Positions 1,289 through 16,635 of a stretch of DNA of 33,615 bases are shown here, piece by piece (the first letter of the stretch is position 1; every line of letters begins with the position of its first letter). The notes under the pieces are model-generated. The model had not been told where the DNA came from and ran no database searches. It saw only the letters and a program-made list of their open reading frames with translations. Origin of the DNA: Acidobacteriota bacterium (GTDB lineage: Bacteria > Acidobacteriota > Thermoanaerobaculia > Multivoradales > J023). The stretch spans positions 1 through 33,615 of the forward strand of contig JAJCXO010000212.1 of the NCBI GenBank assembly GCA_029263395.1, written 5' to 3'. The position numbers were made by a program, and so were the translations under genes.

Positions 1289-1289
1289 G

Positions 1290-1324
1290 ATTATGCAGCT
1301 CAGCATAATGCAAGTCTGCATAAT
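1290..1324 (-). promoter_or_regulatory. Nested ATTATGC/GCATAAT palindromes upstream of the ATPase
   Basis: Immediately 5' of the minus-strand start codon, ATTATGCA (1290-1297) is mirrored by TGCATAAT (1317-1324). A nested partner GCATAAT lies at 1303-1309. On the minus strand the motif repeats as TTATGCA/TTGCATTATGC, and ATTATGC could double as a -10 box. Inverted repeats this close to the start suggest an autoregulatory operator. This is inferred from sequence symmetry only. Confidence 0.5.
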
Positions 1325-1412
1325 CTTGCACGTTGGTCCGTTGTCGGCTTTCAGCCGCGAATACGCTGCTCTGAGGCGAAGCGTGAGACGCTATGAATGA
1401 TGAGCATGCTGG

Positions 1413-1434
1413 TCTGCCAGCCTTTGCTGGCAGA
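1413..1434 (+). other. Perfect 9-bp hairpin in permease leader
   Basis: TCTGCCAGC (1413-1421), loop CTTT, GCTGGCAGA (1426-1434). It lies between the divergent ATPase and permease genes, so it terminates neither. No T-run follows. If transcription starts upstream, it is part of the permease mRNA leader. A smaller stem AGCGT-GAG-ACGCT is at 1380-1392. I do not recognise a purine riboswitch core here. The rest of 1325-1558 holds nothing I can name. Confidence 0.5.
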
Positions 1435-1558
1435 TGAGGGTGTGTTACCTTCGAGAAAAGACCACACCATGACGAGTTAGAGCGCGGTAGGCTCGATGAG
1501 TTCTACTAGAGCCAGACGTTTTTGAACCGAGAATTCGGTCCTGAGGCGAGGAGATCGC

Positions 1559-3088
1559 ATGTCCAACGAACCCGCAGTCGGCCAACGCATCCGTAGTGTT
1601 CAACCGATCTATGGTCTGAACGACAAGCCCGCTTTCGGCCAGACGTTGGTGCTGAGCGCGCAGCATGTGCTGACGATGTTCGGAGCGACGGTGAGTGTGC
1701 CGCTGCTGTTTGGTCCGGCGATGGGAATGACTCCCGGGGAGATCGCACGATTGATCTCGTCCGTGATGTTGTGTTCGGGGTTGGCGACCTTGGTGCAGAC
1801 GACCATCGGCACCGGTTTGCCGATTGTGCAAGGGGTCTCGTTTGCGTTCCTTGGGGCGTTTTTCCTGATTGTCAGTGGCGCAACGGTAGAAGCGGAGGCG
1901 GCTGGCGTGGCCGCCGGACCGCTGGCGATGCAGTACATCGCCGGGGCGATCATTCTCGGTGCGTTGGTTGAGATGGTGGTTGGGTTCAGTGGCCTGGTGG
2001 GTGTGCTACGGCGGGTGTTGTCACCGGTTGTAATCGGTCCGGTGATCATGCTGATCGGGCTGGCGTTATTTCAGCACGGGGCTCCCAAGGCCGGTACACA
2101 TTGGCCGATTTCTGGGCTGACGATCGTGTTGATCATCGTGTTCTCACTGATCCTGTCGCGCAACAGTCGCTTCTTTCGATTGTTCCCGATCCTCACCGCC
2201 GTGGTTGCGGTGACCACGTTGTGTTTTATCTTGTCGAAGACCGGAGTGTTCCCGACCGGCCATCCCTCGAACGTCAACCTAGAAGCAGTACACGAGGCGC
2301 AGTGGATCCGGCTGACCCCTGGCGAGCTGCTGTTTCCCTGGGGCTGGCCGAAGTTTCATCTGGGTTTTTTCCTGGCAATTCTGGCGGGTTATCTAGCCTC
2401 GATGGTTGAGTCGATCGGTGACTACCATGCGGTGTCCTACATGGCGGGAGCGGGCGACCCGACGTCCAAACAGCTCAACCGTGGTATCGGTTCCGAAGGT
2501 GTCGGCTGCTTCCTGACCGGAGTGTTCGGAGGTTTTGCCTCGACCTCCTATTCGGAGAACATCGGGCTCGTCGGTTTGACCAAGGTGGCGTCGCGATGGG
2601 TGGTGCAGGTCGGCGCCGTGATCCTCATACTGCTCGGTGTTTTCGGCAAGTTTGGCGGCTTTGCCGCGGCCATCCCAGGCTCGGTGGTGGGCGGGCTGTA
2701 TTGTGCGCTGTTCGGATTGATCGCCGCGGTGGGAGTGCAGCAGTTGGCCAAAGCAGACCTCTCTAGCGATCGAAATCTGTTCATTTCTGGTTTCTCGTTG
2801 TTCATGGGGCTGTCGGTGCCGGCTTATTTTGCGGCCCGTGGCAGCGTCGAGGGGTTGCAGGCCGGTCAGGTGCTGGCGCTCTACACCCCGACGGTGGAAG
2901 GGCTGCTGGATTCCCTGGGGCCAACCCTGGCTGGCATCGTCAGCTCGATCGGCTCGACCGGTATGGCAGTTGCCGCGATCTGTGGCATCGTGCTCGACAA
3001 CGTGGTGCCGGGAACCGACGAAGAACGTGGCTTGACCCCGAGCCTCTTGGTGCCCGAAGGCGGCGACCTCGGCGTTGGCGACGACTGA
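1559..3088 (+). CDS. NCS2-family nucleobase (uracil/xanthine) permease
   Basis: A 509-residue polytopic inner-membrane protein of the nucleobase:cation symporter-2 (UraA/UapA/XanQ) family, which imports purines or pyrimidines with H+ or Na+. Family marks are visible. AQH (Q35-H36) sits in the first membrane segment, ESIGDYHA (E284) matches the substrate-binding TM8 acidic position, and ENIGLVGLT (from E333) is the NAT signature. About 12-14 hydrophobic segments span the protein. The SD GAGGCGAGGAG (1543-1553) is well placed for ATG 1559. The short acidic tail after the last segment is ordinary. The downstream Tsx-like channel (3414-4199) suggests joint nucleoside/base uptake. Substrate cannot be fixed from sequence; eukaryote-like xanthine/urate transport is possible. 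Confidence 0.9.
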   Translation: MSNEPAVGQRIRSVQPIYGLNDKPAFGQTLVLSAQHVLTMFGATVSVPLLFGPAMGMTPGEIARLISSVMLCSGLATLVQTTIGTGLPIVQGVSFAFLGAFFLIVSGATVEAEAAGVAAGPLAMQYIAGAIILGALVEMVVGFSGLVGVLRRVLSPVVIGPVIMLIGLALFQHGAPKAGTHWPISGLTIVLIIVFSLILSRNSRFFRLFPILTAVVAVTTLCFILSKTGVFPTGHPSNVNLEAVHEAQWIRLTPGELLFPWGWPKFHLGFFLAILAGYLASMVESIGDYHAVSYMAGAGDPTSKQLNRGIGSEGVGCFLTGVFGGFASTSYSENIGLVGLTKVASRWVVQVGAVILILLGVFGKFGGFAAAIPGSVVGGLYCALFGLIAAVGVQQLAKADLSSDRNLFISGFSLFMGLSVPAYFAARGSVEGLQAGQVLALYTPTVEGLLDSLGPTLAGIVSSIGSTGMAVAAICGIVLDNVVPGTDEERGLTPSLLVPEGGDLGVGDD

Positions 3089-3413
3089 ACCGAGTTTGGA
3101 CAGCGGAGTCCAGATAGATCCTGTCCCATAGGGCTTCGAGTACTCGGTTTCGGCACTAGGGCGCACAGCCGTGCGCCCCTACCCAGAGTCTTGCCGATCC
3201 GGCTGGTTCTTGGTGATGAAGTGGTAAGGATGAGGCTGCCCTCTGAGTGATACGCAAGAGTTTTTGTTGCCGTTGATGCTGGGTCTCGTTATGCTGTTTG
3301 CACTATCTAGGATCGATGTCGAGTCATGTTGAGGTGCCTCCGGGCTGCTCGCGAGACATCGATTCGATAACAGGAGATATTTGAACATTCAGCGTAGCCG
3401 GGGAGACTTCATC
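3089..3413. other. 325-bp intergenic gap, no gene seen
   Basis: This separates the permease from the Tsx-like gene. It contains the GC-rich palindrome at 3157-3181 and a more AT-rich stretch toward 3290-3380, which probably holds the promoter of the channel gene. I see no convincing coding frame. The channel gene could alternatively begin at TTG 3381, which has its own AGGAG (3372-3376). Confidence 0.5.
3157..3181. repeat. REP-like GC-rich palindrome
   Basis: GGGCGCAC (3159-3166), loop AGCC, GTGCGCCC (3171-3178), flanked by TA(G)/(C)TA. The stem is perfect and lacks a following T-run, so an intrinsic terminator is uncertain. Sequences of this TAGGG-palindrome-CCCTA form occur as dispersed intergenic repeats in many bacteria. 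It may act as a transcript end or a mobile REP-type element. Confidence 0.55.
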
Positions 3414-4199
3414 ATGGGTCATTTCAAGCATGTTAGAAACCTTTTCTTTGCCGGGCTCGCGCTGCTCTTGGCAAGCGTTCAACCGGTGAAGGCAGCGGAG
3501 TGGAGCAATACTGAATTTCAGATTCAATATGGAACCCTGGATACCCCCGGATTTGCCGGCGGAGGCAGGAAAGACACCCTCATCCTCACGTTTCAACATG
3601 CCAGTGGCTGGAAATACGGAGAAAATTACTTCTTTTTTGATGTACTGAATGCTGAAGGTAATGGCTTCAACGATTCGGATATTTATGGCGAGTGGTATCC
3701 CTACTTGAGTTTCGGCAAGATGTCCGGCAAGAGCGCGGGGTTTGGCATCATCAAAGATACCGGTCTGATCGGAGGCTTCAACTTCAGTGCGGATGCCAAA
3801 GTTCTGAAATATCTTCCAGGATTTCGACTCGCTCTCGATGTCCCGGGTTTTGCCTTTTTCAACGTCGATATCACGGCCTACATCGATGCCAGTGAGGGCG
3901 TCGACGCTGGGGGTGCTCCAGCTCAGGACGACAGTTTCCAGATCGAGGTCAACTGGCTCCTTCCCTTCAAGATCGGTCGCCACAGTTTTACCTTCGAGGG
4001 TCATGTTGAACATATCGGCGAACGTACCAATGAGTTTGGCGGTGAGGTCAGTGACTGGGTCCTGGCCCAACCCCAGTTGCGTTATGACGCCAACGCGCAA
4101 CTGGCGGTGGGTATCGAGTATCAGCTATGGCTGAATAAGCTGGGGGACGCGGCAACCGACGAGAATACCGTCCAGGCGTTGGTGGTATGGAAGTTCTGA
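3414..4199 (+). CDS. Tsx-like nucleoside-specific outer-membrane channel
   Basis: A 261-residue protein with a signal peptide (hydrophobic core FFAGLALLLASV, probable cleavage after PVKA). Alternating beta-strand segments follow, ending in a terminal aromatic WKF, as expected of an outer-membrane barrel. FQIQYGT near the mature N-terminus, SFGK, and the closing VQALVVWKF match the Channel_Tsx family, which passes nucleosides across the outer membrane. ATG 3414 is preferred because GGGGAG (3400-3405) lies 8 nt upstream and it starts at a normal signal peptide; TTG 3381 would add 11 residues. The gene is visibly more AT-rich than its neighbours, which may hint at transfer. It follows the NCS2 permease, a sensible functional partner. 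Confidence 0.85.
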   Translation: MGHFKHVRNLFFAGLALLLASVQPVKAAEWSNTEFQIQYGTLDTPGFAGGGRKDTLILTFQHASGWKYGENYFFFDVLNAEGNGFNDSDIYGEWYPYLSFGKMSGKSAGFGIIKDTGLIGGFNFSADAKVLKYLPGFRLALDVPGFAFFNVDITAYIDASEGVDAGGAPAQDDSFQIEVNWLLPFKIGRHSFTFEGHVEHIGERTNEFGGEVSDWVLAQPQLRYDANAQLAVGIEYQLWLNKLGDAATDENTVQALVVWKF

Positions 4200-4336
4200 C
4201 GAGCACCCCGTGAAGCATCGGATCCCCGGGGGAATGAATCTATTGGGCCCGAGGTCTTTCCCCGACCAGACACACACCTGTAGGCGAATCACCTGCATGA
4301 GATGAGAACCGGGCTCAGCCTAGATATCATGGCGCG

Positions 4337-4921
4337 ATGCGAAACCCTGGAGATATTACCCGGCTGCTGGTGGCGGTGCGGCAAGGGGAGCCGGCCGCTA
4401 TGGATCAGTTGTTTCCGCTGGTCTACCAGGAGATGCGGGGTATGGCCCGCCAGCGGCTGCGTCGACGTCGACCGGGGCAGACGCTGGACACGACGGCGTT
4501 GGTGCACGAGGCTTATCTCAAGCTGATCGACCAGACCCAAGCGCAGTGGGGTGATCGCAGCCATTTTCTGTCGGTGGCCTCGATCGCCATGCGTCATATC
4601 CTGGTGGATTATGCCCGTCGCCGCATGGCTCAGAAGCGGGGAGGTGAGGATCAGCAGGTTGTGCTCGACGAGCGCCATCTCGGGGTCTCCGCCCGCGCTG
4701 AGGAGATCTTGGCGATCGACCAAGCCCTGTCGTCTCTGGCCGAGCTCAGTGAACGACTGAGTCGGTTGGTGGAGCTGCGATTCTTCGGTGGACTGTCGGT
4801 GGCGGAGACCGCGGAAGTGCTCGGGACGTCGGAACGGACGGTCAAACGGGATTGGCGTAAGGCACGGGCTTACCTATTTCGTGCGCTCGGGGGATCTAAC
4901 GAGTCAGCAGCTTCGGAATAG
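4337..4921 (+). CDS. ECF sigma factor, TIGR02999/ECF43-like
   Basis: A 194-residue sigma-70 family factor with region 2 (about 20-90, including ALVHEAYLKL and HFLSVASIAMRHILVDYAR) and region 4 (about 125-185, with the helix-turn-helix SVAETAEVLGTSERTVKRDW). It matches the ECF subgroup that lies beside Ser/Thr kinases. In region 2.2 most ECF factors carry an acidic DAED-like motif for core RNA polymerase binding; here the sequence is LDTTALVHE, with Thr52-Thr53. In the studied ECF43 member EcfP of Vibrio, phosphorylation of a Thr at this region by a kinase substitutes for the acidic charge. No anti-sigma gene is visible, and the kinase begins 46 bp downstream. No clear SD precedes ATG 4337, so the start is likely but not certain. 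Confidence 0.9.
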   Translation: MRNPGDITRLLVAVRQGEPAAMDQLFPLVYQEMRGMARQRLRRRRPGQTLDTTALVHEAYLKLIDQTQAQWGDRSHFLSVASIAMRHILVDYARRRMAQKRGGEDQQVVLDERHLGVSARAEEILAIDQALSSLAELSERLSRLVELRFFGGLSVAETAEVLGTSERTVKRDWRKARAYLFRALGGSNESAASE

Positions 4922-4967
4922 ATCTAAGCTCAGACCGCACCCAAGGCGGTCAGTGACCGGGAGAAGG

Positions 4968-7900
4968 ATGACAGGCACCGGCAACTCAGGTACGCACAAC
5001 TCAGGCACCGGCACGTCAGACCGTTGGGCGCAGATCGACGAGCTTTTGGACGAGGCTCTCGAGCTTCCGGCCGAGGCTGTAGCGGCATTTCTCGACCGCG
5101 CTTGCGGAGACGATGCGGAGCTGCGTCACGAGGTCGAAAGTTTGATCGACGCCGACCGTCGAGCGGGGCAGTTCATGGAATCGCCGGTCGAAGAGTACGC
5201 GGCGCCACTGGTCGACGAGACCCTTCCATTGTCACAGCTTGATCCGCTCTTGGGTCGTCAATTGGGCCCTTACCGGGTCGAGCGCAGCATCGGTGGCGGT
5301 GGCATGGGGGTGGTCTACGAGGCTGTGGATACCCGGCTCGACCGTCGGGTGGCCCTCAAGCTGTTGCCGCTGGCGGTGAGCAGCGTTCCTGACGCCAAAG
5401 AGCGATTCGTGCGCGAGGCACGAGCGGCGTCGGCGCTCGATCATCCGAATATCTGCACCATCTTCGATATTGGTGAAACCGAGGGGGGGCGCATGTTCAT
5501 CGTGATGGCCTTCTACGATGGCGAAACCCTCGATCAACGGATGCAACGTGGGGCGCTGGAGATCGGGGAGGCACAGGACATCGCGATCCAAGTGGCGCGG
5601 GGCCTCGAGCGGGCACACGCCGCCGGTATCGTGCACCGCGATATCAAACCTGCCAACATCATTCTGACCTCCCATGGTGAGGTCAAGATCCTCGACTTTG
5701 GCGTCGCCAAGATGTCCGGCGCGGTAGATTTGACGGTCAGCGGGGTCTCGCCGGGTACGCCGGCCTACATGTCGCCGGAGCAGGCGCGGGGTGAGACGGT
5801 GGACGTGCGCAGTGACATCTGGTCGTTGGCGGCGATGCTCTACCAGATGTTGACTGGACGTCGGCCATTCGCTGGGCGCAGCGAGGTCGAGGTTTACCTG
5901 GCGATTCAAGACCAGGAGCCGGTACGGGTTGGTGAGCTGCGGGCTGCGGTGCCGGAGCCTCTCGAGCAGGCGGTCATGACAGCGTTGAACAAAGATTCGG
6001 ACGCTAGGCCGGAGAGCATCGGGGCGTGGCTCGAGGGTCTCGGTGTCGAGCCGCGGGAAGACTTCCTGAGCGGCCGAGTGCTGCTGCGGAATGAATCGGC
6101 GCCGGGCGCCAAGATACAGGACGAGTCGGTGTTGACTCAGTCTCGGACGGGGCAGCCGAGTTCTGGCACCTTGGTGGAGGGTACCGCGGTCCGCACCGTG
6201 ATGATGACGGATCTGGTGGCGTCGACCCAGCTGTCGCAGCAACTCGGAGATCGACGGTCGATCGAAGTGTCGGTTGCTCACGATCGCCTCGCCCGCGATT
6301 TGTTCGCCACCCACCACGGGCAGGAGATCGACAAGTCGGACGGCTTCTTGGTCCTCTTCGATCGTCCGATCGACGCCGTACGCTGCGCCTTGGCTTATCA
6401 CCAAGGTGCTGCCGAGCTGGGCGATGGCTTCGGCATCAACCTCCTTGCCCGGGTTGGTGTACATCTGGGAGAGGTGCACCTGCGCCGTAACTCGGCGGCG
6501 GATGTGGCGCGAGGTGCCAAGCCGATCGAAGTGGAAGGGCTCGCCAAGTCCTTGGCGGGTCGCGTCGCGTCGCTTGCTGAAGGGCACCAGACATTGGTCA
6601 CACGGGCGGCGTTTGATCTGGCGCGTCGGGCCGCTGACGATCAGCCATCGGATCTAGCAACCGACGCCCAGGCTGAATTGCGATGGATGGCACACGGGAC
6701 CTACGTTTTCCAAGGCGTTGCCGACTCGATCGAAGTTTTTGAGGTTGGCCGTGTGGGGCTGGCGCCGCTGACCGCGCCGAGTGACGTGGCCAAGGCTCAG
6801 CGTGCTACCGGCGGCGATACCCGAGTGATTTTGGGTTGGCGTGCCGCCGCCGGCCAGCCGCTTCCCGAGCGCCGCAATTGGGTGATGCGGCAGAAAATCG
6901 GCGAGGGTGGGTTCGGCGAAGTGTGGCTGGCGCGTCATGCCAAAACCGGCGAGCGTCGAGTCTTCAAGTTCTGTTACCAGGCGGAACGCCTGCGCAGCCT
7001 CGAGCGAGAGGTGACGTTCTTCCGTCTGATGAAAGAGTCCCTCGGCAATCGTCCAGACATCGTCCGTATTCTCGACTGGAGCTTCGATCAGCCGCCGTTT
7101 TATCTCGAGTCGGAGTATACGGACGGCGGCGATTTGGTCGAGTGGGCGACCCGTGAGGGTGGACTGGCCACCGTGCCGCTGGCAACTCGCCTCGAATTGG
7201 TGGCACAAGTGGCGGACGCGCTGGCCGCGGCCCACTCGGTAGGTATCCTGCACAAAGACGTCAAGCCGGCCAACATTCTGATCACCAGCGATGCCGCGGG
7301 GGGGCCGCGTGCCCAACTGACCGATTTTGGCGTCGGGCAGGTGGCGGATCCGTCGTTGTTGCCGGAGATCGGTGTCACCCTGTTGGGGCTGACCGAGGAC
7401 GACGCCTTCACCTCTGCCGGTACCCGATTGTACCTGGCACCTGAGATCCTCGAGGGTAAGCCGCCCAGTATGCAAGGGGATCTTTACGCTCTCGGGGTCA
7501 TGCTCTACCAGATGGTGGTTGGAGACCTGTCGCGGGCCTTGGCCCGGGGTTGGCAACGGGATGTCGCCGACGATCTGTTGTGTGAAGATATCGCGTGTTT
7601 TGTCGACGGATCGCCGGAGCGCAGGCCGAGCAGCGTCTCCGAGGTGGCTGAACGGCTGCGCGGTCTCGAGCAGCGACACACCGAGCGTGCCTCGCAAGAG
7701 CAGGCTGGGCTGGCTGCCCGAGAAGCGCAGGAGGCGCTCGAGCGCGGCCGCGCCCGACGTCGGCTGTTGGCGATGGCGGTGGTTGTGCTGGCGGTGTTCG
7801 CCACCGCTATGGCATTCCAGGTCCGGCGAACTCGGCAAGAAGCGGCGCGGGCCAATCGTGAAGCCGAGTCTGCGTTGCAGGTTGCCGGATTTCTAGAAGA

Positions 7901-8996
7901 CCTGTTCAAAGTGGTCGACCCTAGCGAAGCTCGCGGCAACTCGGTAACCGCCCGTGAGATTCTCGATCTCGGCGCTCAGCGAATCGACGAGGAACTGGAC
8001 GATCAACCGGCGATCCAAGCGCAGTTGATGGAGGTCATCGGTGGTGTCTACATGGGCCTGGGATTGCCCGCCTCAGCACGGCCGTTGTTGATCCGTTCGC
8101 TGGAAGAACGCCGGGCTCTCTATGGCCCTGATAACCAGCAAGTGGCGGACAGCCTGCAACGGTTGGCGCGCTGCGAGTATTCGCTCACCGACTACGAAGC
8201 CGCTGAACCATTGTTTCGAGAAGCCCTCGACATCCGTCGCCGGCTGTTGGGTGACGACCATGTGAAGGTGGCGAAAACCCTGTGTGATCTAGGGGATTTG
8301 CAGCATCGGGCTGGCGACCTGACGGCGGCGGAAACCTCCTACACGGAATGCCTGGCGATCGTTCAGCGCAGGTCTTCGCAGCCCGACGCCGCGCTGGCCG
8401 AGGCGATTGCCAATCTCGCTTGGTTGAAGGACTTTCAAGGCAAAACTCGCGAAGCCGCCGAACTGTATCCGCGAGCGTTGACGATGTCACGGCAGATCCA
8501 TGGTGATCGCCACCGGGAGGTGGCAATCACGCTCAATAACTACGGCTACTTCCTGATGAATCACCAGGAGGATGCAGCGAGCGCCGAGCCGTTGCTGCGC
8601 GAAGCATTGGCTACCGAGCAAGCCTTGGCCCCCGAAGCCATCGGCTGGCTGATCGTACAGAGCAACCTGGCGATGGTCCTCAACCTGTTGGAGAATCTTG
8701 CTGAGGCTGAGTCCTTGGCGCGAGAAGCCCGGTTGCAGCTGGCAGAAAGAGTGGGTGAGGACCATTGGGCCTTCGCCTATGCTCAAGGGGTCCTTGGTTC
8801 CAATCTTGCGGCTCAACGCCGGTTCGAAGAGGCGGAGGGTTTCCTCTTGGCATCTTATGAGTTCATGCGTCAGAACATGAACGAGACCGCTTATGCGCCA
8901 CAGTCGGTGGAGCGTTTGATCTCGTTGTACGAGACCTGGGGTAAAGAGGCCGAGACCTTTCGTTACACGGCGATCCGTCGCCAATACGAGTCCTGA
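4968..8996 (+). CDS. Kinase-cyclase-kinase-TM-TPR signalling protein
   Basis: 1342 residues from ATG 4968 (GGAG at 4960-4963); the frame stays open upstream but overlaps the sigma gene. Domains in order: Hanks-type kinase 1 (about 102-359; GGGGMGVV loop, VALK about 130, HRD about 223, DFG about 244). Then a class III nucleotide cyclase-like domain (about 408-588), kinase 2 (about 638-901; GEGGFGEV, VFK about 665, HKD about 762, DFG about 785, so non-RD), one membrane helix (about 931-952), and a C-terminal TPR array (about 995-1340). In the cyclase domain both metal aspartates can be placed (D415 in MMTDLVAST, D458 in KSDGF) and Arg532 is present. The usual GDG is SDG and the usual Asn is Ser528, so activity is uncertain. 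The TPRs would be outside if kinases are cytoplasmic. It probably phosphorylates the upstream sigma factor (inference). Confidence 0.93.
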   Translation: MTGTGNSGTHNSGTGTSDRWAQIDELLDEALELPAEAVAAFLDRACGDDAELRHEVESLIDADRRAGQFMESPVEEYAAPLVDETLPLSQLDPLLGRQLGPYRVERSIGGGGMGVVYEAVDTRLDRRVALKLLPLAVSSVPDAKERFVREARAASALDHPNICTIFDIGETEGGRMFIVMAFYDGETLDQRMQRGALEIGEAQDIAIQVARGLERAHAAGIVHRDIKPANIILTSHGEVKILDFGVAKMSGAVDLTVSGVSPGTPAYMSPEQARGETVDVRSDIWSLAAMLYQMLTGRRPFAGRSEVEVYLAIQDQEPVRVGELRAAVPEPLEQAVMTALNKDSDARPESIGAWLEGLGVEPREDFLSGRVLLRNESAPGAKIQDESVLTQSRTGQPSSGTLVEGTAVRTVMMTDLVASTQLSQQLGDRRSIEVSVAHDRLARDLFATHHGQEIDKSDGFLVLFDRPIDAVRCALAYHQGAAELGDGFGINLLARVGVHLGEVHLRRNSAADVARGAKPIEVEGLAKSLAGRVASLAEGHQTLVTRAAFDLARRAADDQPSDLATDAQAELRWMAHGTYVFQGVADSIEVFEVGRVGLAPLTAPSDVAKAQRATGGDTRVILGWRAAAGQPLPERRNWVMRQKIGEGGFGEVWLARHAKTGERRVFKFCYQAERLRSLEREVTFFRLMKESLGNRPDIVRILDWSFDQPPFYLESEYTDGGDLVEWATREGGLATVPLATRLELVAQVADALAAAHSVGILHKDVKPANILITSDAAGGPRAQLTDFGVGQVADPSLLPEIGVTLLGLTEDDAFTSAGTRLYLAPEILEGKPPSMQGDLYALGVMLYQMVVGDLSRALARGWQRDVADDLLCEDIACFVDGSPERRPSSVSEVAERLRGLEQRHTERASQEQAGLAAREAQEALERGRARRRLLAMAVVVLAVFATAMAFQVRRTRQEAARANREAESALQVAGFLEDLFKVVDPSEARGNSVTAREILDLGAQRIDEELDDQPAIQAQLMEVIGGVYMGLGLPASARPLLIRSLEERRALYGPDNQQVADSLQRLARCEYSLTDYEAAEPLFREALDIRRRLLGDDHVKVAKTLCDLGDLQHRAGDLTAAETSYTECLAIVQRRSSQPDAALAEAIANLAWLKDFQGKTREAAELYPRALTMSRQIHGDRHREVAITLNNYGYFLMNHQEDAASAEPLLREALATEQALAPEAIGWLIVQSNLAMVLNLLENLAEAESLAREARLQLAERVGEDHWAFAYAQGVLGSNLAAQRRFEEAEGFLLASYEFMRQNMNETAYAPQSVERLISLYETWGKEAETFRYTAIRRQYES

Positions 8997-9023
8997 AGCA
9001 GGATGCGATAAGATCTGAGAGCA

Positions 9024-9254
9024 ATGTTTAAAGACTGTTCGTCTGGGAAGGACCGTGCGTCTGGGAAAGACCGGACGTCCGTCGATTCACGGACTAATTT
9101 AGAGAAGCTCGATGACGCGGGGCTGGTGTCCGATGTCGTGTTTGAGAAGTATCAAACGAGTGTTGATGCGCTGGCCCCTGAGATCGTCGATGAGATGATC
9201 GCGGCCTTCAATCACAAAGCGGTCGACCCGGAGACGAGTTCAACGTCAGATTGA
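9024..9254 (+). CDS. Small acidic protein A, unknown
   Basis: 76 residues, 27 bp after the kinase stop. The N-terminus is polar and carries a duplicated SGKDR(A/T) segment encoded by an 18-bp direct repeat (9040-9057 and 9058-9075). The C-terminal half contains YQTSVDALAPEIVDEMIAAF, which aligns with two segments of the next protein (9291-9596), so the two are paralogous. It has no Cys-rich core, signal peptide or transmembrane helix. The SD is weak (GAGAG). It could be a peptide precursor, an adaptor, or a kinase substrate; I recognise no family. Start and expression are less certain than for the large genes, but paralogy with its neighbour supports it as real. Confidence 0.65.
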   Translation: MFKDCSSGKDRASGKDRTSVDSRTNLEKLDDAGLVSDVVFEKYQTSVDALAPEIVDEMIAAFNHKAVDPETSSTSD

Positions 9255-9290
9255 CGGAAGAATTGTGCGGACTTGTAAAAGCGAGAACAC

Positions 9291-9596
9291 ATGGCCAACG
9301 AAAATTACGAAGCCCTCAAATTTGCCGAGTTGACCTCCCCGGCGATCGATGACGATGTCGACGGAATCTTCAAGCCGGCTCTCGACACCCTCGACCCGGA
9401 GTTGGTCTCGGAGATCATCAGAGCTCGTCAAGGCTTGAACTACGCGATCCTCAGAGAAGCCGGATTGACCACCGAGACAATCGACAACAGCGACAAGTAC
9501 AAGGCTCAGCTCAATCAATTGCCGCTCGAACTGATCCTCGAGCTCGTCGGTTCGGTGGATGAGTTGGTGGATGACGGCGGCCAAGACTTCTCGTAG
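9291..9596 (+). CDS. Small acidic protein B, unknown, internal repeat
   Basis: 101 residues, strongly acidic, with no signal peptide or membrane segment. Two segments, FKPALDTLDPELVSEIIRAR (about 27-46) and YKAQLNQLPLELILELVGSV (about 70-89), share the pattern aromatic-x3-Leu-x2-Leu-x-Pro/Leu-Glu-hydrophobic with each other and with protein A. The motif therefore occurs three times across the two genes. The helical amphipathic pattern suggests a protein-binding module. It lies between the kinase and the NAGGN-type amidotransferase, so it may be a substrate, carrier or regulator for either. The SD is weak. It belongs to no family I can name. Confidence 0.75.
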   Translation: MANENYEALKFAELTSPAIDDDVDGIFKPALDTLDPELVSEIIRARQGLNYAILREAGLTTETIDNSDKYKAQLNQLPLELILELVGSVDELVDDGGQDFS

Positions 9597-9601
9597 AGCC
9601 T

Positions 9602-9618
9602 CCTCAACAATTTTGAGG
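9602..9618 (+). terminator. Small hairpin between protein B and amidotransferase
   Basis: CCTCAA (9602-9607), loop CAATT, TTGAGG (9613-9618), just after the stop of the small gene. The stem is only 6 bp and no long T-run follows, so it would act at most as a leaky attenuator or an mRNA-stabilising stem that lets the small protein be made in excess of the enzymes downstream. Confidence 0.35.
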
Positions 9619-9652
9619 TCGAATCGACCGTCGAGTCGAGGGTGATTCCGCA

Positions 9653-11449
9653 TTGTGCGGCATCTGCGGTGAGGTCCGGTTCGATGGCGAGGTCGCCTCG
9701 GTCTCCGCCGTCGACCGAATGGCCCAGGTGTTGGCACCGCGGGGTCCGGACGAGGCCGGAGCCTGGACAGATGGCCGCCTCGCGGTCGCCCATCGACGCC
9801 TGAAGGTTATCGATCCAGGTCCGCGCGCTTGCCAGCCGATGGTGGCCACCGAGCTTGGGTTGGGGCTGGTCTACAACGGCGCGATTTATAATTTTTGCGC
9901 CTTGCGACATGAGCTCGAAGCACTGGGATATCGCTTCCGGTCAGACGGCGACACGGAGGTAGTCCTCAAGGCCTACCATGCTTGGGGGGATGCCTTTGTC
10001 GAACGGCTCGACGGCATGTTTGCGTTTGCCCTGTGGGAGACCGCGAGTGGGCGTCTTGTGCTGGCCAGGGACCGATTGGGCATCAAGCCGCTCTACATGG
10101 CGGCGATGACCGGTGGCTTACGTTTTGCGTCGAGTGTGCCGGCGTTGTTGGCTGCGGGTGGCGTCGACACGGCGCTCGACCCGGTTGCGGTGCAGTGTTA
10201 TCTGACGCTCGGCGGCGCGGTACCAGCTCCACGGACGCTGCTTGCCGGAGTTCGCAAGTTACCCCCTGCAACGGTCTCGACCATTGAAGCGGACGGTACT
10301 CGCCAATCCACTCGGTTTTGGCAACTCGATCGAGTCTCTCCGGTGAGCGAGGAGATCGACGAAGCAGACTTGCGGGACGAGCTGTTGGCGATCTTGCGTC
10401 GAGCCGTGCAGCGTCGACTGATTGCTGACGTGCCGGTTGGGGCGTTCCTCTCCGGTGGTCTCGACTCGAGTCTGGTTGTCGGGTTGATGGCTGAGGCGAC
10501 GACGAGGCCGGTACCGACGTATTCGATCGGTTTCGAGCGTGTTGGTCGTTTGATCGGTCATGAGTTTCCTCAGTCCGATCGTGTGGCCCGGCGATTCGGC
10601 ACCGAACACCAGTCGTTGTCGGTTGGCCCGGTCGAGTTGGTGCGGAATCTCGAAGGCTGCGTCCGGGCGATGTCGGAGCCACAAACCGGCCGAGATGCCA
10701 TCGGTTTCTATCTGCTCGCTCGTCAGGCGGCCGAAGTGGTGGGCGTGGTGCAATCGGGGCAGGGGGCGGATGAGTTGTTCGGGGGGTATGTCTGGCACGG
10801 CGCGATGCGGACCTTGGCTGGTGCCAGTACCGAGGAGCTTACTGCTGCCTATCGCCGAGCGGCCTTTGGTCGTGACGACGCGACGGCCCATGACGCTCTG
10901 CATCCGAGCTTGATCGGTGACGATCATAGTGGACATCTGCTAGCCGAGCTGTTCGATCCAACCCATGAGCCTAAGGACGCTGGGCCGATTGCTGGGCCGC
11001 TCGCCCGAGTGCTGCGTTACGAGACCGAGGCGCAGCTGTGTGAGGACCCGTTGCAACGACTCGACAATATGACAATGGCGTCGGGGCTCGAAGCGAGGGT
11101 TCCGTTCCTCGATCACGAAGTGGTGGAGTTTGCGGCGCGCCTACCGGATCGCCTGAAAGCCTCCGGTAGCGGTAAGGTGCTTTTGCGGCAGGCAGCACGA
11201 AGTCTGCTGCCATCGGAGATTGTCGACCGACCCAAGGTCTACTTCCCGGTGCCGCAGCTGGGGGCGATCCGGGGTTCGGTGTTGGCGTTTGTTCGCGACG
11301 TGTTGACCCAGCCCAGTGCTGCAAGGCGTCAGTTGTTCCGTCCGGGGTATCTGGAGGACCTGCTGGCTGCGCCTAGGTCGCGCCGGAAGTCGAGGCGACT
11401 GTGGGAAGCGACGACCCTGGAGTGCTGGCTGCAAGTCCACGGTATTTAG
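9653..11449 (+). CDS. NAGGN-type asparagine-synthase-like amidotransferase
   Basis: 598 residues. The N-terminal class II glutaminase domain begins MCGICGEVRFDG, where Cys2 is the nucleophile that releases ammonia from glutamine. The start must therefore be TTG 9653, with GAGGGTG at 9638-9644. The synthetase domain has the pyrophosphate loop SGGLDSS (about 267-273), which adenylates a carboxylate. Segments such as ASSVPALLAAGGVDT, VVQSGQGADELFGGY and MSEPQ match, from memory, the TIGR03104 amidotransferase that makes N-acetylglutaminylglutamine amide, an osmoprotectant, more closely than housekeeping AsnB. The usual partner genes (GNAT/ATP-grasp dipeptide synthase and M42-like hydrolase) are absent from this window. 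Instead it sits between two small acidic proteins and an S41 peptidase, so the amidated substrate may differ. Confidence 0.88.
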   Translation: MCGICGEVRFDGEVASVSAVDRMAQVLAPRGPDEAGAWTDGRLAVAHRRLKVIDPGPRACQPMVATELGLGLVYNGAIYNFCALRHELEALGYRFRSDGDTEVVLKAYHAWGDAFVERLDGMFAFALWETASGRLVLARDRLGIKPLYMAAMTGGLRFASSVPALLAAGGVDTALDPVAVQCYLTLGGAVPAPRTLLAGVRKLPPATVSTIEADGTRQSTRFWQLDRVSPVSEEIDEADLRDELLAILRRAVQRRLIADVPVGAFLSGGLDSSLVVGLMAEATTRPVPTYSIGFERVGRLIGHEFPQSDRVARRFGTEHQSLSVGPVELVRNLEGCVRAMSEPQTGRDAIGFYLLARQAAEVVGVVQSGQGADELFGGYVWHGAMRTLAGASTEELTAAYRRAAFGRDDATAHDALHPSLIGDDHSGHLLAELFDPTHEPKDAGPIAGPLARVLRYETEAQLCEDPLQRLDNMTMASGLEARVPFLDHEVVEFAARLPDRLKASGSGKVLLRQAARSLLPSEIVDRPKVYFPVPQLGAIRGSVLAFVRDVLTQPSAARRQLFRPGYLEDLLAAPRSRRKSRRLWEATTLECWLQVHGI

Positions 11450-11544
11450 ATCGTGATGGCCCCGATCGACGATCGAATCCGTGGCAGAGATTGGCAGAGC
11501 ATGGGGGGATTTTGGTTCGAGCTATGACGATCAGGAGGATGACA

Positions 11545-13920
11545 ATGCAACAAAGCGATCCGATCGATGATGCCTCATTCCAATACGGAGTGTCTCCAGA
11601 TGCACCGGGCAGGGAGCCAGCTAGGCTGCCAAGTCCTGGAGAGTCGATACCGCTCGAGGCTCATCGCCTGTTGGCGTTGGCTGAGTTGACCCTGGAAGAC
11701 CGCAAACAGATCGTGGATCAGTCCATTTTCCTGCTCGAACAAGCTTATGCCCATCGTCGGCACAAACTAGCGGTGCATGGGACGAATCCCATCTTGCAAT
11801 TGATGGCTCTCAGGCGTCGCCTCGACAACCTCAATTCCAAGGACTTGACCGAAATGTTCCCGATCGGCCTCGCCGATTTCGCCACCGAGAGCCCACGATA
11901 TCCCGAGCTTGCCTTCCATCGCGAGATGACATCTATTTTCAACGGTTTGCGGGATCGACATACGCTCTACCTGCTGCCTGAGCCGTTCTCCGAGTTGATC
12001 GCCTTTCTTCATTTTGATGTCGAGCGGGCACGAGACGAAGAAGGGCGTTTCCACTATGTTGTGACCCGGGTGCTTCCCGGCGGGCATTACGTCCAGCCGT
12101 TGACCCGTGACGTCCCGGCGTTCCATCAACCGCCGGTGCAGGTGGGCTGGGAGATCGCTTATTGGAACGGTCAGCCGATCGAGCGCGCGATCGACATCAA
12201 TGCCTCGGAACACGCCGGTAGTAATGCTGCAGCGCGTGCAGCTCGCGGTCTCGAACGGCTCACGACCCGCCCCCTCATCGTTTCTCCGATGCCGACCGAA
12301 GCCCACGTCCAGGTCGGCTTCTTGACTCGCGGTGAGCGGTATGGCGAGATCGAGCCCAATGCGCCGCGCGACGTAGCGTATGAACGGATCCCGCGATCGG
12401 TCGTGATCAACTTTCCTTGGTTCGTGACCCGCCAACAGCGTGGTGACAGTATTTCCCGGCCGCGATTGAGAGGCCGTTTTGGGGGGCGTAAGCGCGTTCG
12501 TCGACTGGCTTTGGCCAATGCGCGGCGCCGTGAGGTCATGGGGCGTGGGCTCGATGTCGAAGTAGATCGGTTGCACGAGTTTCGGGCTGGCAACCTCAGT
12601 CAGAGTGCACCCACCGAGATGCCGGGCATCAAGAGGCTCGCGGTGCGTCCGCCGTTTGCTCGGAAGCTCGGTGCGTCGAGTATCGAAGTGGATGGTGAGC
12701 GTTACGGCTATCTGAGGCTCTACTCGTTCAATCAGGTGGCCCCGACAGCTTTCCTGCACGAAGTTGAACGACTGGTGACCCATCACGACATGCCGCAACA
12801 AGGTCTGGTGATTGATGTGCGCGGTAACGGTGGTGGTTTTATCCGAGCAGGTGAGTCGTTATTGCAATTGTTCACGCCGCGCTGGATCGAGCCCGAGCCT
12901 TTTCAGATCAGTGTCTCTTCGTTCGCCGGAGAGTTGACCGGTCGGGCGGATGGACGAGGAAAGTTGCCCGACCTCACGCCCTGGCAGGCTTCGGTGAAAC
13001 TTGGAGCGGAGACCGGGATGAGCTTCTCACGCGGGATTCCGATCACCAGCATTAAACGTTGCAATGTTCGAGGGCAGGTTTATTATGGTCCCGTCGTGCT
13101 GATTGTCGACGCCAATTGTTACAGCACAACCGACATTTTTGCCGCCGGGTTCAAGGATCATCAGATCGGGCCGGTGATCGGGATCGATGCCAACACCGGA
13201 GCGGGGGGAGCCAACGTATGGCAGCACAGCTTCTTGCGCAATGTGCTCGAGACCAAGAGCAGCACCAAGGGTGAGAGCGGGATCCAGTTACCCAAGCTGG
13301 CCAAGGGAGCCGACGTGAGTGTTGCGATTAGACGCAGCCTGCGGGTTGGACCTGATGCAGGTACGCCGCTGGAAGATATTGGCGTTGTTCCAGACTTCGT
13401 CTATTCGATGACCCTGCGTGATCTCTTCCGCAAGAACATGGATCTATTTGAGCAATCCGTCGAGCTCTTGCAGAGGCATGTCCCAGACGAACGTTGTCAC
13501 CTTCAGAGGCTGTCGTCGCTAGCATCGAGTTGGCCGGTTCCGGTCGCTCGCCAGCTGCGGCTGATCGATCTCGAGTGTGACGAGGAGTCCATCGCAGCCA
13601 GGGTCCAAACCGCGGGTATCGATCGCCTCGATGCGTTTGTTGGCGGGCATTGGGTAGGAACTGATCGATACGTCAAGGGTCGACCGGAGATCAGTCTCGA
13701 TATCGATCCGCCTGCGGACGGTGCTGAGTCCACCGTGACGGATTTTTGCCTTCTGCGGCGTTCCCACGAGTCCCGTGAGTCTCGCGAGTCTGGTGAACTC
13801 GAGTTGGAGGGTTACCGCAGAATCGGTGCCAATGGTCTTGACGATTGGGAACTCGTCGCGGTCTGGCGGCGGTCGGTTTCGGGTTACAAGAGACTTGGGT
13901 CTCGTGAGCGCACGGAATAG
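11545..13920 (+). CDS. S41-family (C-terminal processing) peptidase, cytoplasmic
   Basis: 791 residues from ATG 11545, chosen because a perfect AGGAGG (11533-11538) lies 6 nt upstream; the frame is open further up but overlaps the amidotransferase. The first 380 residues are helical and mixed, with HREMTSIFNGLRDRHT resembling the N-terminal part of S41 enzymes. The catalytic core has GLVIDVRGNGGG (about 420) and LIVDANCYSTTDIFAAGFKD (about 518-537), with Ser527 the likely nucleophile. No signal peptide or lipobox is seen, unlike most C-terminal processing proteases, and I see no clear PDZ domain. A HESRESRESGE run (about 741-751, 9-bp DNA repeats) precedes the C-terminus. It follows the amidotransferase by 95 bp and is probably co-transcribed. 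The last 37 bp overlap the convergent methyltransferase gene. Confidence 0.85.
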   Translation: MQQSDPIDDASFQYGVSPDAPGREPARLPSPGESIPLEAHRLLALAELTLEDRKQIVDQSIFLLEQAYAHRRHKLAVHGTNPILQLMALRRRLDNLNSKDLTEMFPIGLADFATESPRYPELAFHREMTSIFNGLRDRHTLYLLPEPFSELIAFLHFDVERARDEEGRFHYVVTRVLPGGHYVQPLTRDVPAFHQPPVQVGWEIAYWNGQPIERAIDINASEHAGSNAAARAARGLERLTTRPLIVSPMPTEAHVQVGFLTRGERYGEIEPNAPRDVAYERIPRSVVINFPWFVTRQQRGDSISRPRLRGRFGGRKRVRRLALANARRREVMGRGLDVEVDRLHEFRAGNLSQSAPTEMPGIKRLAVRPPFARKLGASSIEVDGERYGYLRLYSFNQVAPTAFLHEVERLVTHHDMPQQGLVIDVRGNGGGFIRAGESLLQLFTPRWIEPEPFQISVSSFAGELTGRADGRGKLPDLTPWQASVKLGAETGMSFSRGIPITSIKRCNVRGQVYYGPVVLIVDANCYSTTDIFAAGFKDHQIGPVIGIDANTGAGGANVWQHSFLRNVLETKSSTKGESGIQLPKLAKGADVSVAIRRSLRVGPDAGTPLEDIGVVPDFVYSMTLRDLFRKNMDLFEQSVELLQRHVPDERCHLQRLSSLASSWPVPVARQLRLIDLECDEESIAARVQTAGIDRLDAFVGGHWVGTDRYVKGRPEISLDIDPPADGAESTVTDFCLLRRSHESRESRESGELELEGYRRIGANGLDDWELVAVWRRSVSGYKRLGSRERTE

Positions 13921-14576
13921 AACCTCAAGCCGCCGCTGGAGAAGTAGGGTTCGGCTGCCACGAAATCGAGCCCGCCGCCCTCGATCATGCGTTGGAAGAT
14001 ATCGAGAGGTGGCTCCTGGCGTACGTCGTAAGGGACGGGTGAACCGGTCGAGGGGATTACGACCTTGAGTTTGTGCGGCTCGACTTCCGAGATGAACAGT
14101 TCGGCGCCGGGGTTGAGGTACGGCCGTACAGTGGCGTAGAACTCCTGATGGGTCGCCCAGTCGGGATCGTGGGGCCGGGGATCGTTGTGGCGTGCGGCGA
14201 AGAGGGGATGTTCGGGGTTCAGCCCACAGTAGCTTGGTGGGTTGCCGATGACGAGATCAAAGCGTTCGTCGGCAGGAATGGTCTGGAAGTTGTCGCTGCG
14301 GTAAAAGGTGATGTTGAGGTTGTTGGTGTCGCGAGTCCGTGCGACCCAGGGCTCGACAGCCGGATTCTTGTCGGCCAGCACAAGCTCGTCGATCAGGCCG
14401 GCGCGTAGCAATGTGATGCCTAAGAACCCCGGCCCAGCGCACCATTCGAGGCAACGGCCGTAGGGAGGATTCCCGGCACGTCGGAGATAGTTGGCGAAGG
14501 GGCGAGCCAGACGGCTGCCGAAACCGTCCAACTCGGGTGCGTAGTAGACCCACACGTCGCGGTACCGCCACTTCAT
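13884..14576 (-). CDS. Class I SAM-dependent methyltransferase, HemK/N6-MTase-like
   Basis: 230 residues if ATG 14576 (MKWRYRDVWVYYAPELDGF) is the start. A TTG at 14669 overlapping the stop of the TIR gene would add 31 residues and imply translational coupling; no strong SD decides. Motif I is CLEWCAGPGFLGI, the acidic end of strand 2 is VLADKN, and motif IV is VIGNPPSY. NPPY/NPPS in this position is found in methyltransferases acting on amide or exocyclic amino nitrogen (PrmC/HemK, RsmC, N6-adenine). The substrate cannot be chosen from sequence. It probably shares a transcript with the TIR gene upstream. Its 3' end overlaps the convergent S41 gene by 37 bp. Confidence 0.82.
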   Translation of the reverse strand: MKWRYRDVWVYYAPELDGFGSRLARPFANYLRRAGNPPYGRCLEWCAGPGFLGITLLRAGLIDELVLADKNPAVEPWVARTRDTNNLNITFYRSDNFQTIPADERFDLVIGNPPSYCGLNPEHPLFAARHNDPRPHDPDWATHQEFYATVRPYLNPGAELFISEVEPHKLKVVIPSTGSPVPYDVRQEPPLDIFQRMIEGGGLDFVAAEPYFSSGGLRFYSVRSRDPSLL

Positions 14577-14665
14577 CGCACATCTCGCGCTCTTTGGCCT
14601 CATCGGCAGAGGATATGCGATCGCTCCGCTCGGAGCACTGAGCGGTCTAGCAGCACGGAGCCATC

Positions 14666-16405
14666 TCAAAGCACGGTATAGGTGCGGCTGCCGATCAGCT
14701 GATCCGCACTGTTGTAGAGCCGAACCTCATATTGACCCGAGTCGACGTGACGCCGGCCGTAGAAGATTCGATAACCACTGCCGACGTTCCTGGAAACGTC
14801 GACCTTCCGGACATGGTCGATGGTGCCGTCAGCCCTAGTCCACTTCAGGGTGAGCGTCTCGCGTGACTGTGGCGCATGCACCCAGGCGAACATGTAGACC
14901 GATCCCGCTTGAAATTCGTCGGCAACTCCGACGGGTGCAGTAGGGAGACCTTCGCCGCGATGAACCTGTGCGCAAGTCACCAGCTTGTCCGAGCTAGTCA
15001 GGCTCGCCAGGTCGCCGCTGGGCGTCGTGGGCTGCTGCGTCGAGTGGCTGTTGCGCTCCAGGTTAGCTTGCCGCAATGGTGACATTTGTTGGGCGACGTC
15101 CAGGTTCTGCGAATCCGCCACCGCAGTCTCTGGTGTCTTCAACTCGTCGATGGTCTTCAAGACTCTGGCGGCGGCGGTGGAGTCGAGAAATTGGCGGGAG
15201 CTGGCCCACAACGTTTCATAAGCCAGCAAAAGCTCATCCCTATCGAGATCGGAAGCCTGCAGCTGGGAGAGGGTCCGGTAAGCGGCCAGCGCGGAAGCAG
15301 CGGGCCGCGGTGAGCTTGTGTCTTCGATCTCGCCTTGAGACGTGTTGTCGTTTGGCGTCACGGTCTCGCCTTGGAGGATTGCCTCGTCTTTGGGGACCGT
15401 CTCGCCGAGAGTCACCGTCTCGTCTTCGGGCACCGTCTCGTCTTTGATTGCAGTGGCGTCGCCAGCAATGGCAGCGGGGTACTGAAAGCCAGTCACCTGC
15501 TCGGTGGTAGACGAGCTCGACGGGGCAGGCGTCACAACGTCCACCGTTTCAAAGCCTACGAAGTCGACGTCTGAAAATTCGGTGCTCGAGCCTCCAGCCA
15601 TCGCATCCTCAACCGAGCTCTTGCTCGACGACTCCGGCTGCAGGCCGGTGTCTGCTGGGGCTGGCTCTATATCCGTGGTTCGATCTGTGCTGGTTGTTGC
15701 GGTCGGTATGGAGCGTGGCGCCTCTGAGGGTTGAGTTGACGCTATCTGCTCGAATTTTGGCAGGAGATCCGGCCGAGCGACACAGACGCCGACACTGGCG
15801 GCGGCGAGCAGGGTGATCGACACCGCGAACAAGGCCGCGCGAGAACGCCGCCGCATGTTGACGACAGGCTCGATGACGATCGGCGCCAGCGCGAGGGGTG
15901 CCCCCACTGCCAGCTCTGCGTCGTTACCGAACTCTGGGCCATCACCGGGCTCTGGGCCATCTCCATGGGGACCCATGAGCAGATCGGCAACCACCAGTTG
16001 AAATGTGCTGTCGGGGCTCTTACAGAGCATCGAAATCGAACTCAACACCCGATCGAAACCCGGGTGGGAAGACTGGCCGTCCCAATCGACGAGGTTGGCG
16101 GTTTGGAGCCGTCCGAAACCGAGAGGTACCGGCACGTCGTCGATCAAGATCGGCATCAGGATGCCTCGGTCTGCTCCCGCTTCGGCCTCTTCTTTGACCC
16201 AGTCGGACAGGACCGACTTCTCCGACCACAACACCACAACACACGAAGCATCGTCCAAAGCCTGTTGAATCACTTGATCGAAGGACTTGCCAGGCGGGAT
16301 CTTGCGATCCCACCAAACGGAGAAACCGTTGTCCTCGAGCGTCTCGGCAATTCGCTTGGCACGGGGGCGATCTTCTCTTTTGTAGCTGACAAATATGTGA
16401 CTCAT
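14666..16405 (-). CDS. Membrane-anchored TIR protein with DUF2914-like domain
   Basis: 579 residues from ATG 16405, with GGAGGAG ending 6 nt upstream; an ATG at 16411 abuts the SD and is less likely. The N-terminal TIR domain (1-140) has HIFVSYKRED, VWWDRKIPPG and VLWSEKSVLSDWVKEE, with Glu73 at the position of the catalytic Glu of NAD-cleaving bacterial TIR domains. A helix at about 190-210 crosses the membrane. A long Ser/Thr/Glu-rich linker follows and includes degenerate (D/G)ETV repeats. The C-terminal domain (about 473-579) ends with FYGRRHVDSGQYEVRLYNS, resembling DUF2914, and should face the periplasm. The protein could sense an envelope signal and couple it to NADase or adaptor activity in the cytoplasm (inference). 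A methyltransferase gene follows directly. Confidence 0.85.
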   Translation of the reverse strand: MSHIFVSYKREDRPRAKRIAETLEDNGFSVWWDRKIPPGKSFDQVIQQALDDASCVVVLWSEKSVLSDWVKEEAEAGADRGILMPILIDDVPVPLGFGRLQTANLVDWDGQSSHPGFDRVLSSISMLCKSPDSTFQLVVADLLMGPHGDGPEPGDGPEFGNDAELAVGAPLALAPIVIEPVVNMRRRSRAALFAVSITLLAAASVGVCVARPDLLPKFEQIASTQPSEAPRSIPTATTSTDRTTDIEPAPADTGLQPESSSKSSVEDAMAGGSSTEFSDVDFVGFETVDVVTPAPSSSSTTEQVTGFQYPAAIAGDATAIKDETVPEDETVTLGETVPKDEAILQGETVTPNDNTSQGEIEDTSSPRPAASALAAYRTLSQLQASDLDRDELLLAYETLWASSRQFLDSTAAARVLKTIDELKTPETAVADSQNLDVAQQMSPLRQANLERNSHSTQQPTTPSGDLASLTSSDKLVTCAQVHRGEGLPTAPVGVADEFQAGSVYMFAWVHAPQSRETLTLKWTRADGTIDHVRKVDVSRNVGSGYRIFYGRRHVDSGQYEVRLYNSADQLIGSRTYTVL

Positions 16406-16635
16406 GGTCATCTCCTCCGGAAACGACGGCCTGGCGTCGGTTGGGTATGGGATATCGACGGCTTGTCCCGCCTTCACCTTTGACAACGCGAGACGGCAGA
16501 GAAACGGGCCAAGTCGATTGCGGTCGGCAATCGAGGGGCGAAAAAAGAGCCCGGCGGAGTGGCCCCGTTTGTCTTCCCAATGCGTGACACCAGATAGACG
16601 AGGACACCACAGACCGCGACCGCAAGGAGATCACG
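16406..16635. promoter_or_regulatory. Divergent promoter region, TIR gene / GNAT-CNB gene
   Basis: This 230-bp gap separates two divergently read genes and must hold both promoters if each is transcribed on its own. The SDs are clear on each side: GGAGGAG for the minus gene (near 16412-16419) and AAGGAG (16622-16627) for the plus gene. I see no convincing -35/-10 pair or palindrome and no RNA gene. Confidence 0.4.

Follow-up and report, generated by a model that had tools for sequence, protein, structure and literature searches.

Among the closest described systems to the locus considered here is one in which an asparagine-synthetase-like enzyme amidates a peptide. PesC, a member of the same enzyme family as the amidotransferase of this locus, amidates and then nitrilates the C-terminus of a RiPP precursor, and its authors count AsnO, which acts on a dipeptide, among the peptide-amidating enzymes (PMC13060819). 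About 300 uncharacterised asparagine-synthetase-like candidates are placed there near RiPP elements (PMC13060819). If the reading that we favour is true, the present locus would be one such candidate; its substrate, a folded protein, would be unusual, and the enzyme would be tied to kinase/sigma-factor control.

The locus lies in the window, by which we mean the whole stretch of DNA that was analysed (33,615 nucleotides), and contains the following genes:

4337 to 4921, plus strand: ECF-type sigma factor, 194 residues, first of the same-strand run (TIGR02999 222.3 bits, cut-off 126.15)
4788 to 8996, plus strand: kinase/cyclase protein, a cyclase-like region flanked by two Ser/Thr kinase domains, with C-terminal TPR repeats
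9024 to 9254, plus strand: protein A, 76 residues, a single repeat copy and a variable C-terminal tail
9291 to 9596, plus strand: protein B, 101 residues, two tandem repeat copies and then a conserved tail
9653 to 11449, plus strand: asparagine-synthetase-like glutamine amidotransferase of AsnO type, TTG start, Cys2 (TIGR03104 733.9 bits)
11524 to 13920, plus strand: S41 peptidase with CPAF-like motifs (Pfam S41 60.2 bits), start placed by eye in a frame that opens at 11401
13884 to 14669, minus strand: small-domain methyltransferase (MTS 27.7 bits), start near 14579 by eye, convergent, membership uncertain
14666 to 16486, minus strand: TIR-domain protein (TIR_2 88.8 bits), its C-terminal part also in the second genome, membership uncertain

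The same-strand order of sigma factor, kinase/cyclase, A, B, amidotransferase and S41 peptidase is conserved in two genomes, the one that holds the window (G000) and a second of the same genus (G001), whose counterparts of A and B are called A' and B'. Gaps of 27 bases separate the kinase gene from A, 36 A from B and 56 B from the amidotransferase gene. The kinase probably starts later than 4788, where its frame overlaps the sigma factor gene. A promoter-like site at 4302-4330, just 5' of the sigma factor gene, and the one site returned by a terminator scan of 4200-14700, at 13616 within the S41 gene, are consensus matches only. The preliminary description of this DNA had placed A and B exactly at these positions, and the kinase, TIGR03104-like amidotransferase and S41 peptidase that it named as neighbours were confirmed by Pfam and NCBIfam, with Pkinase in two stretches of the kinase protein together with TPR_12.

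Both small proteins are acidic, as had been proposed (computed pI 4.47 for A and 4.05 for B), and the three repeat segments quoted for them were all found. Alignment and a model of the repeat unit agree with one copy in A and two in B; the repeat length of about 20 residues has to be revised, since the true unit has about 45 residues and the 20-residue motif is its second half. The units and the tail of B lie as follows:

9090 to 9218, plus strand: repeat unit of A (unit model E 1.5e-20, this unit being among the model's sources)
9297 to 9437, plus strand: first repeat unit of B (unit model E 4.1e-20, likewise a model source)
9432 to 9566, plus strand: second repeat unit of B (unit model E 3.2e-21, likewise a model source)
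9564 to 9593, plus strand: B tail LVDDGGQDFS, ten residues identical in the two genomes

Across the six aligned units (three per genome), N3, L7, A10, L12, L28 and E35 are invariant, and the unit model, which was built from those same six copies, recovers three in each genome at E 3.0e-22 to 4.1e-20. That A and B are paralogues, as first suggested, is supported by shuffle tests, in which the alignment scores of 49 (A and B), 57 (A' and B'), 51 (A and B') and 58 (A' and B) were reached by 3, 0, 1 and 1 of 2000 shuffles, respectively, and by profile-profile comparison of A with B (probability 77.1, E 2e-5). The two halves of B' resemble each other significantly (score 52, 0/2000 shuffles); for the halves of B the score of 30 was equalled by 135 of 2000 shuffles and is not significant. 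An AlphaFold2 model of B, whose input comprised just two sequences, contains four short helices in each repeat copy, eight in all, with a mean pLDDT of 69.4 at best and a range of 40.8 to 69.4 over five models. The repeat is thus predicted, at modest confidence, to be helical, and B has the look of a folded repeat protein, not of a leader followed by a short core.

The reading frames are conserved at the protein level, a check that the preliminary description had proposed: dN/dS between the two genomes is 0.34 for A and 0.36 for B, so that both genes are coding and under purifying selection. The kinase, amidotransferase, S41 and methyltransferase genes give 0.13-0.16, and A and B are therefore constrained, yet more loosely than their enzyme neighbours.

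Their distribution is narrow. B is present in two of 59 genomes (its own counted), in two of the 72 of the order and in two of the 148 of the class, with one spurious match in addition; among the matches listed for 396 phylum genomes there were its own genome and two spurious ones, G001 not being listed there, and these sets overlap. The spurious matches lie antisense to a large gene (G092) or within frames resembling, by eye, an enoyl-CoA hydratase (G435) and a 3-hydroxyacyl-CoA dehydrogenase (G249). An own-genome match (G000:C148) was likewise set aside, being antisense to what looks by eye like a non-ribosomal peptide synthetase frame; three further own-genome matches are weak (E 1.06 and worse). 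Full-length copies of the unit occur in G000 and G001 only among 147 class genomes, where the best further match reaches E 0.019 (G141, 32 residues within a 457-codon frame) and 16 other genomes give matches at E 0.04 to 0.48. Among the 396 phylum genomes full-length copies occur only in its own genome; a match in G340 (E 0.002) covers 20 residues within a 462-codon frame. That no family had been recognised for A and B is borne out by searches of Pfam, NCBIfam, PDB and the order, class and phylum genomes, which returned no credible relative beyond the genus. The B model (pLDDT only 69) had no match to PDB structures at E 0.001 or better, the unit profile none to PDB sequences lower than E 0.63, B and B' none in PHROGs below E 0.13, and B none in the plasmid search at E 1, and no Rfam family reached its gathering score over the window.

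Homologues at related loci, to which the preliminary description had looked for corroboration, were found as A' and B' in G001, with their neighbours in identical order up to the end of the contig inside the TIR gene, but the unit had no match at E 0.01 in 106 neighbourhoods of related genes (80 of amidotransferases, four of S41 peptidases, 20 of kinases and two stretches of genome G074). The suggested adjacency with amidotransferase and S41 genes is similarly kept in G001, although this amounts to n = 2 and both genomes are syntenic. Synteny extends over most of window positions 188-15297, to about the end of the G001 contig, and because it is so broad the shared gene order is weak evidence for joint function: two syntenic genomes cannot separate genes that work together from genes that lie together.

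The amidotransferase passes the cut-off of TIGR03104, the N-acetylglutaminylglutamine (NAGGN) enzyme, with 733.9 against 570.1 bits, and among PDB sequences it matches a hydroxyamidotransferase best (7ylz_A, E 2.7e-63). The catalytic residues Cys2, Arg49, Asn75 and Asp100 and the SGGLDSS loop are kept, as are Glu374 and Tyr379. This pair has the same five-residue spacing as the Glu/Tyr pair that PesC uses (PMC13060819). At least 76 of 80 relatives agree at 204 positions; both genomes keep 168 of these, whereas 36 are changed in one genome or both. The 28 that are changed in both include 15 that are invariant in 80/80 relatives, among them 346 and 382-383, the latter directly past Tyr379. In a tree with these relatives, made by a quick method with a midpoint root for drawing only, the enzymes of the two genomes are set off from the rest by a branch of at least 0.88; the relatives had been picked because they contain exact peptide patterns from the query, which biases them towards likeness. 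The partner synthetase of the NAGGN pathway lies in the DNA fetched around 65 of the 80 relatives; for the other 15 that DNA is without it, some of them being on short contigs. These 15 loci are L010, L016, L018, L019, L024, L030, L031, L033, L035, L041, L045, L048, L053, L058 and L069, and 12 of these 15 TIGR03104-like loci cluster together in the tree (support 92). An amidotransferase of 38% identity in G074 lies among genes that resemble glycan genes by eye.

One explanation that requires no role for A and B is that the product of the amidotransferase is the amide of a small molecule or dipeptide, as in osmolyte synthesis, with A and B being unrelated lineage-specific proteins. Members of the TIGR03104 family act on a dipeptide, and passing the equivalog cut-off is consistent with this. 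It is nevertheless unlikely, for residues invariant in the 80 relatives are changed here and no TIGR03103 partner synthetase exceeds the cut-off of 569 in either genome, the best scores being 176.8 bits in G000 (96% complete) and 173.1 bits in G001 (86% complete). The M42 peptidase of the NAGGN pathway was likewise absent among the scanned neighbours. Simple NAGGN synthesis is rejected because the partner synthetase is missing, and the protein may be a repurposed enzyme of AsnO type acting on another substrate. The curated name "N-acetylglutaminylglutamine amidotransferase" can thus fall on an enzyme whose genome has no partner synthetase over the cut-off.

Such a substrate may be provided by the adjacent small proteins. 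The ten C-terminal residues of B are identical in the two genomes even though six of their ten codons carry silent changes and the stop codon differs too; at the identity of B and B' the chance of a terminal identical run of ten is 0.00077, and that of such a run anywhere in B is 0.042. The C-terminal tail of A is not conserved between A and A'. Within the B tail lies GGQ (B residues 96-98, window 9576-9584), the motif methylated by PrmC in release factors. The neighbouring methyltransferase matches the PrmC model weakly (31.7 bits, cut-off 199.1), and its coincidence with GGQ may be due to chance.

Our preferred reading, with a probability of roughly 40%, makes A and B the substrates or carriers of a RiPP-like system: the repurposed AsnO-type enzyme would modify a carboxylate and the S41 peptidase would trim the product. 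The position of A and B had already been taken as that of substrates, carriers or precursors, and this gains support because the amidotransferase has no usual partner synthetase over the cut-off, because the B tail is conserved, because two neighbouring genes have relatives with RiPP-like neighbours elsewhere and because a RiPP pathway with an asparagine-synthetase-like enzyme, PesC, acting on a precursor C-terminus has been published (PMC13060819). In the same run there is also a candidate modifying enzyme with intact catalytic residues, as judged at family level. Both this assignment and the chemistry that follows are inferred. The repeat would serve as a docking, leader-like domain, and the amidotransferase would adenylate a carboxylate on the LVDDGGQDFS tail, at the C-terminus or on an Asp side chain, and turn it into an amide, perhaps carrying the conversion further. 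Trimming would fall to the S41 enzyme and methylation perhaps to the methyltransferase, and the sigma factor and kinase/cyclase would control expression or phosphorylate a component.

The proposed trimming enzyme departs from the C-terminal processing peptidases (Ctp). Ctp enzymes use a Ser-Lys dyad with the catalytic Lys within a GKG motif; this motif is absent from the S41 protein, where the region reads TGAGGAN in 5/5 aligned relatives. With four relatives the protein shares RD[RA]H, S-[TA]-[TAG]-D, TGAGGAN and E-D-[IL]-G, motifs that resemble CPAF more than the Ser-Lys Ctp enzymes, and it scores 52.8 bits against the CPAF model NF033424, below the cut-off of 250; no signal peptide was recognised by eye. 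None of these relatives (G000:C282, G111:C58, G046:C273 and G038:C48) is accompanied by a copy of the repeat unit according to the unit model; the first three were examined for frames of at least 200 residues, and the neighbours at L104 and the S41 protein of L102 were put to Pfam. At L104 (G046:C273:8001-22631, positions 5850-14591) an S41 peptidase of the same subtype lies amid a TonB-dependent receptor, a TIR protein and a CHAT-TPR protein.

Relatives of the methyltransferase occur in three of 147 class genomes, two of this genus and G074. The G074 stretch (L198, G074:C55:3000-12896, positions 805-8913) encodes the methyltransferase, in whose frame no start codon is listed before 8224, an asparagine-synthetase-like enzyme, PqqD (55 bits), an HPr-kinase-like protein, a 56-residue frame ending in GVTCPCT and two DUF455 ferritin-like proteins, and thus looks like a RiPP-like cluster from its gene content. 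The methyltransferase has a PDB sequence match in 9l4q_A (E 1e-25), and a literature search returned no paper naming PDB 9L4Q.

Strong relatives of the kinase/cyclase core occur at 41 places in 21 of 147 class genomes, two of these places being the run itself and its G001 counterpart. Neighbourhoods were fetched for 20 of the 39 others, two of whose contigs end within about 420 bases of the kinase gene or core, and RiPP-like enzymes were seen by eye in one of the 20 (G029), a lower bound as only this one was put to Pfam and NCBIfam. There (L183, G029:C30:2800-22700, positions 4825-12192) a kinase/cyclase lies directly upstream of an 81-residue frame ending in GGLGGTAVCP, followed by an LxmK-like kinase (71.1 bits, below the cut-off of 315), with a HopA1 protein (133.3 bits, cut-off 22.7) and a C39-like peptidase (33.3 bits). 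The kinase/HopA1 pair is a known feature of class V lanthipeptides, and L183 is, from its predicted proteins, a class V lanthipeptide-like cluster. No paper on a "peptide modification system cyclase" was found in the literature.

The position next to the kinase also admits a different role, in which A and B would be adaptor or regulatory proteins, scaffolding or inhibiting a kinase/cyclase-sigma switch through the repeat, and the amidotransferase and peptidase would be mere targets. ECF sigma factors activated by kinases are a described type of switch, and the 27-base spacing directly after the kinase gene, the predicted helical repeat (at modest confidence) and the lack of a conserved tail in A would fit such a role. 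We regard it as somewhat less likely than the RiPP-like reading, given that the unit is found in 0/20 of the fetched neighbourhoods of homologous kinase/cyclases and that scaffolding alone leaves the conserved tail of B unexplained.

If the run is taken together with the methyltransferase and the TIR protein, it could instead be an anti-phage defence island. A TIR domain is present and PADLOC models match the kinase (mad6, PD-T4-6), the TIR protein (SAVED-TIR, ThsB) and, in part, the methyltransferase (mad2, 47.1 bits); however, for the kinase the best of these fall on the general kinase domain, and A, B, the amidotransferase and the peptidase have no PADLOC match at E 0.001, which makes this very improbable.

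Several observations weigh against the RiPP-like reading as well. No PqqD/RRE match was obtained by Pfam or NCBIfam in 4788-16486 (a divergent RRE may escape such models, and some RiPP classes have none), no exporter was found among the genes scanned there, and only the single kinase neighbourhood appeared RiPP-like by eye. To these are added the unconserved tail of A, the folded appearance of B, the lack of the unit from the 106 neighbourhoods, the methyltransferase on the opposite strand and the broad synteny. A bolder version, in which A and B define a new class of modified proteins, is improbable as a whole: folded tandem-repeat carriers whose GGQDFS tail would be amidated or nitrilated by an AsnO enzyme drawn from osmolyte synthesis, trimmed by the S41 peptidase and possibly methylated at the Gln of GGQ by the neighbouring methyltransferase, with the sigma factor and kinase/cyclase in control.

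Compared with the nitrilobacillin (pes) pathway (PMC13060819), the locus likewise has two small proteins, precursors in pes, beside an asparagine-synthetase-like enzyme and a peptidase; it differs in that no MNIO or HExxH enzyme is found among the genes scanned here, that the peptidase is S41 rather than M16, and that A and B resemble folded repeat proteins. With NAGGN synthesis it shares an amidotransferase over the family cut-off with catalytic residues kept, whereas the TIGR03103 partner is not over its cut-off, invariant positions of the relatives are changed and small proteins adjoin the enzyme instead. Lasso peptide cyclases (NF033535) also place an asparagine-synthetase family enzyme beside a small protein, but the enzyme here scores 201.9 bits against a cut-off of 525, and neither a lasso protease nor PqqD is found among the genes scanned. 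The TIGR03903 (TOMM kinase/cyclase) and TIGR04510 ("putative peptide modification system cyclase") families occur near peptide-modification genes, and the kinase protein of this locus, like the TOMM kinase/cyclase fusions and TIGR04510 cyclases, combines kinase and cyclase regions in one protein, although it remains below both cut-offs, with 199.3 bits against 705.75 for TIGR03903 and, over residues 467-672, 194.4 bits against 400 for TIGR04510.
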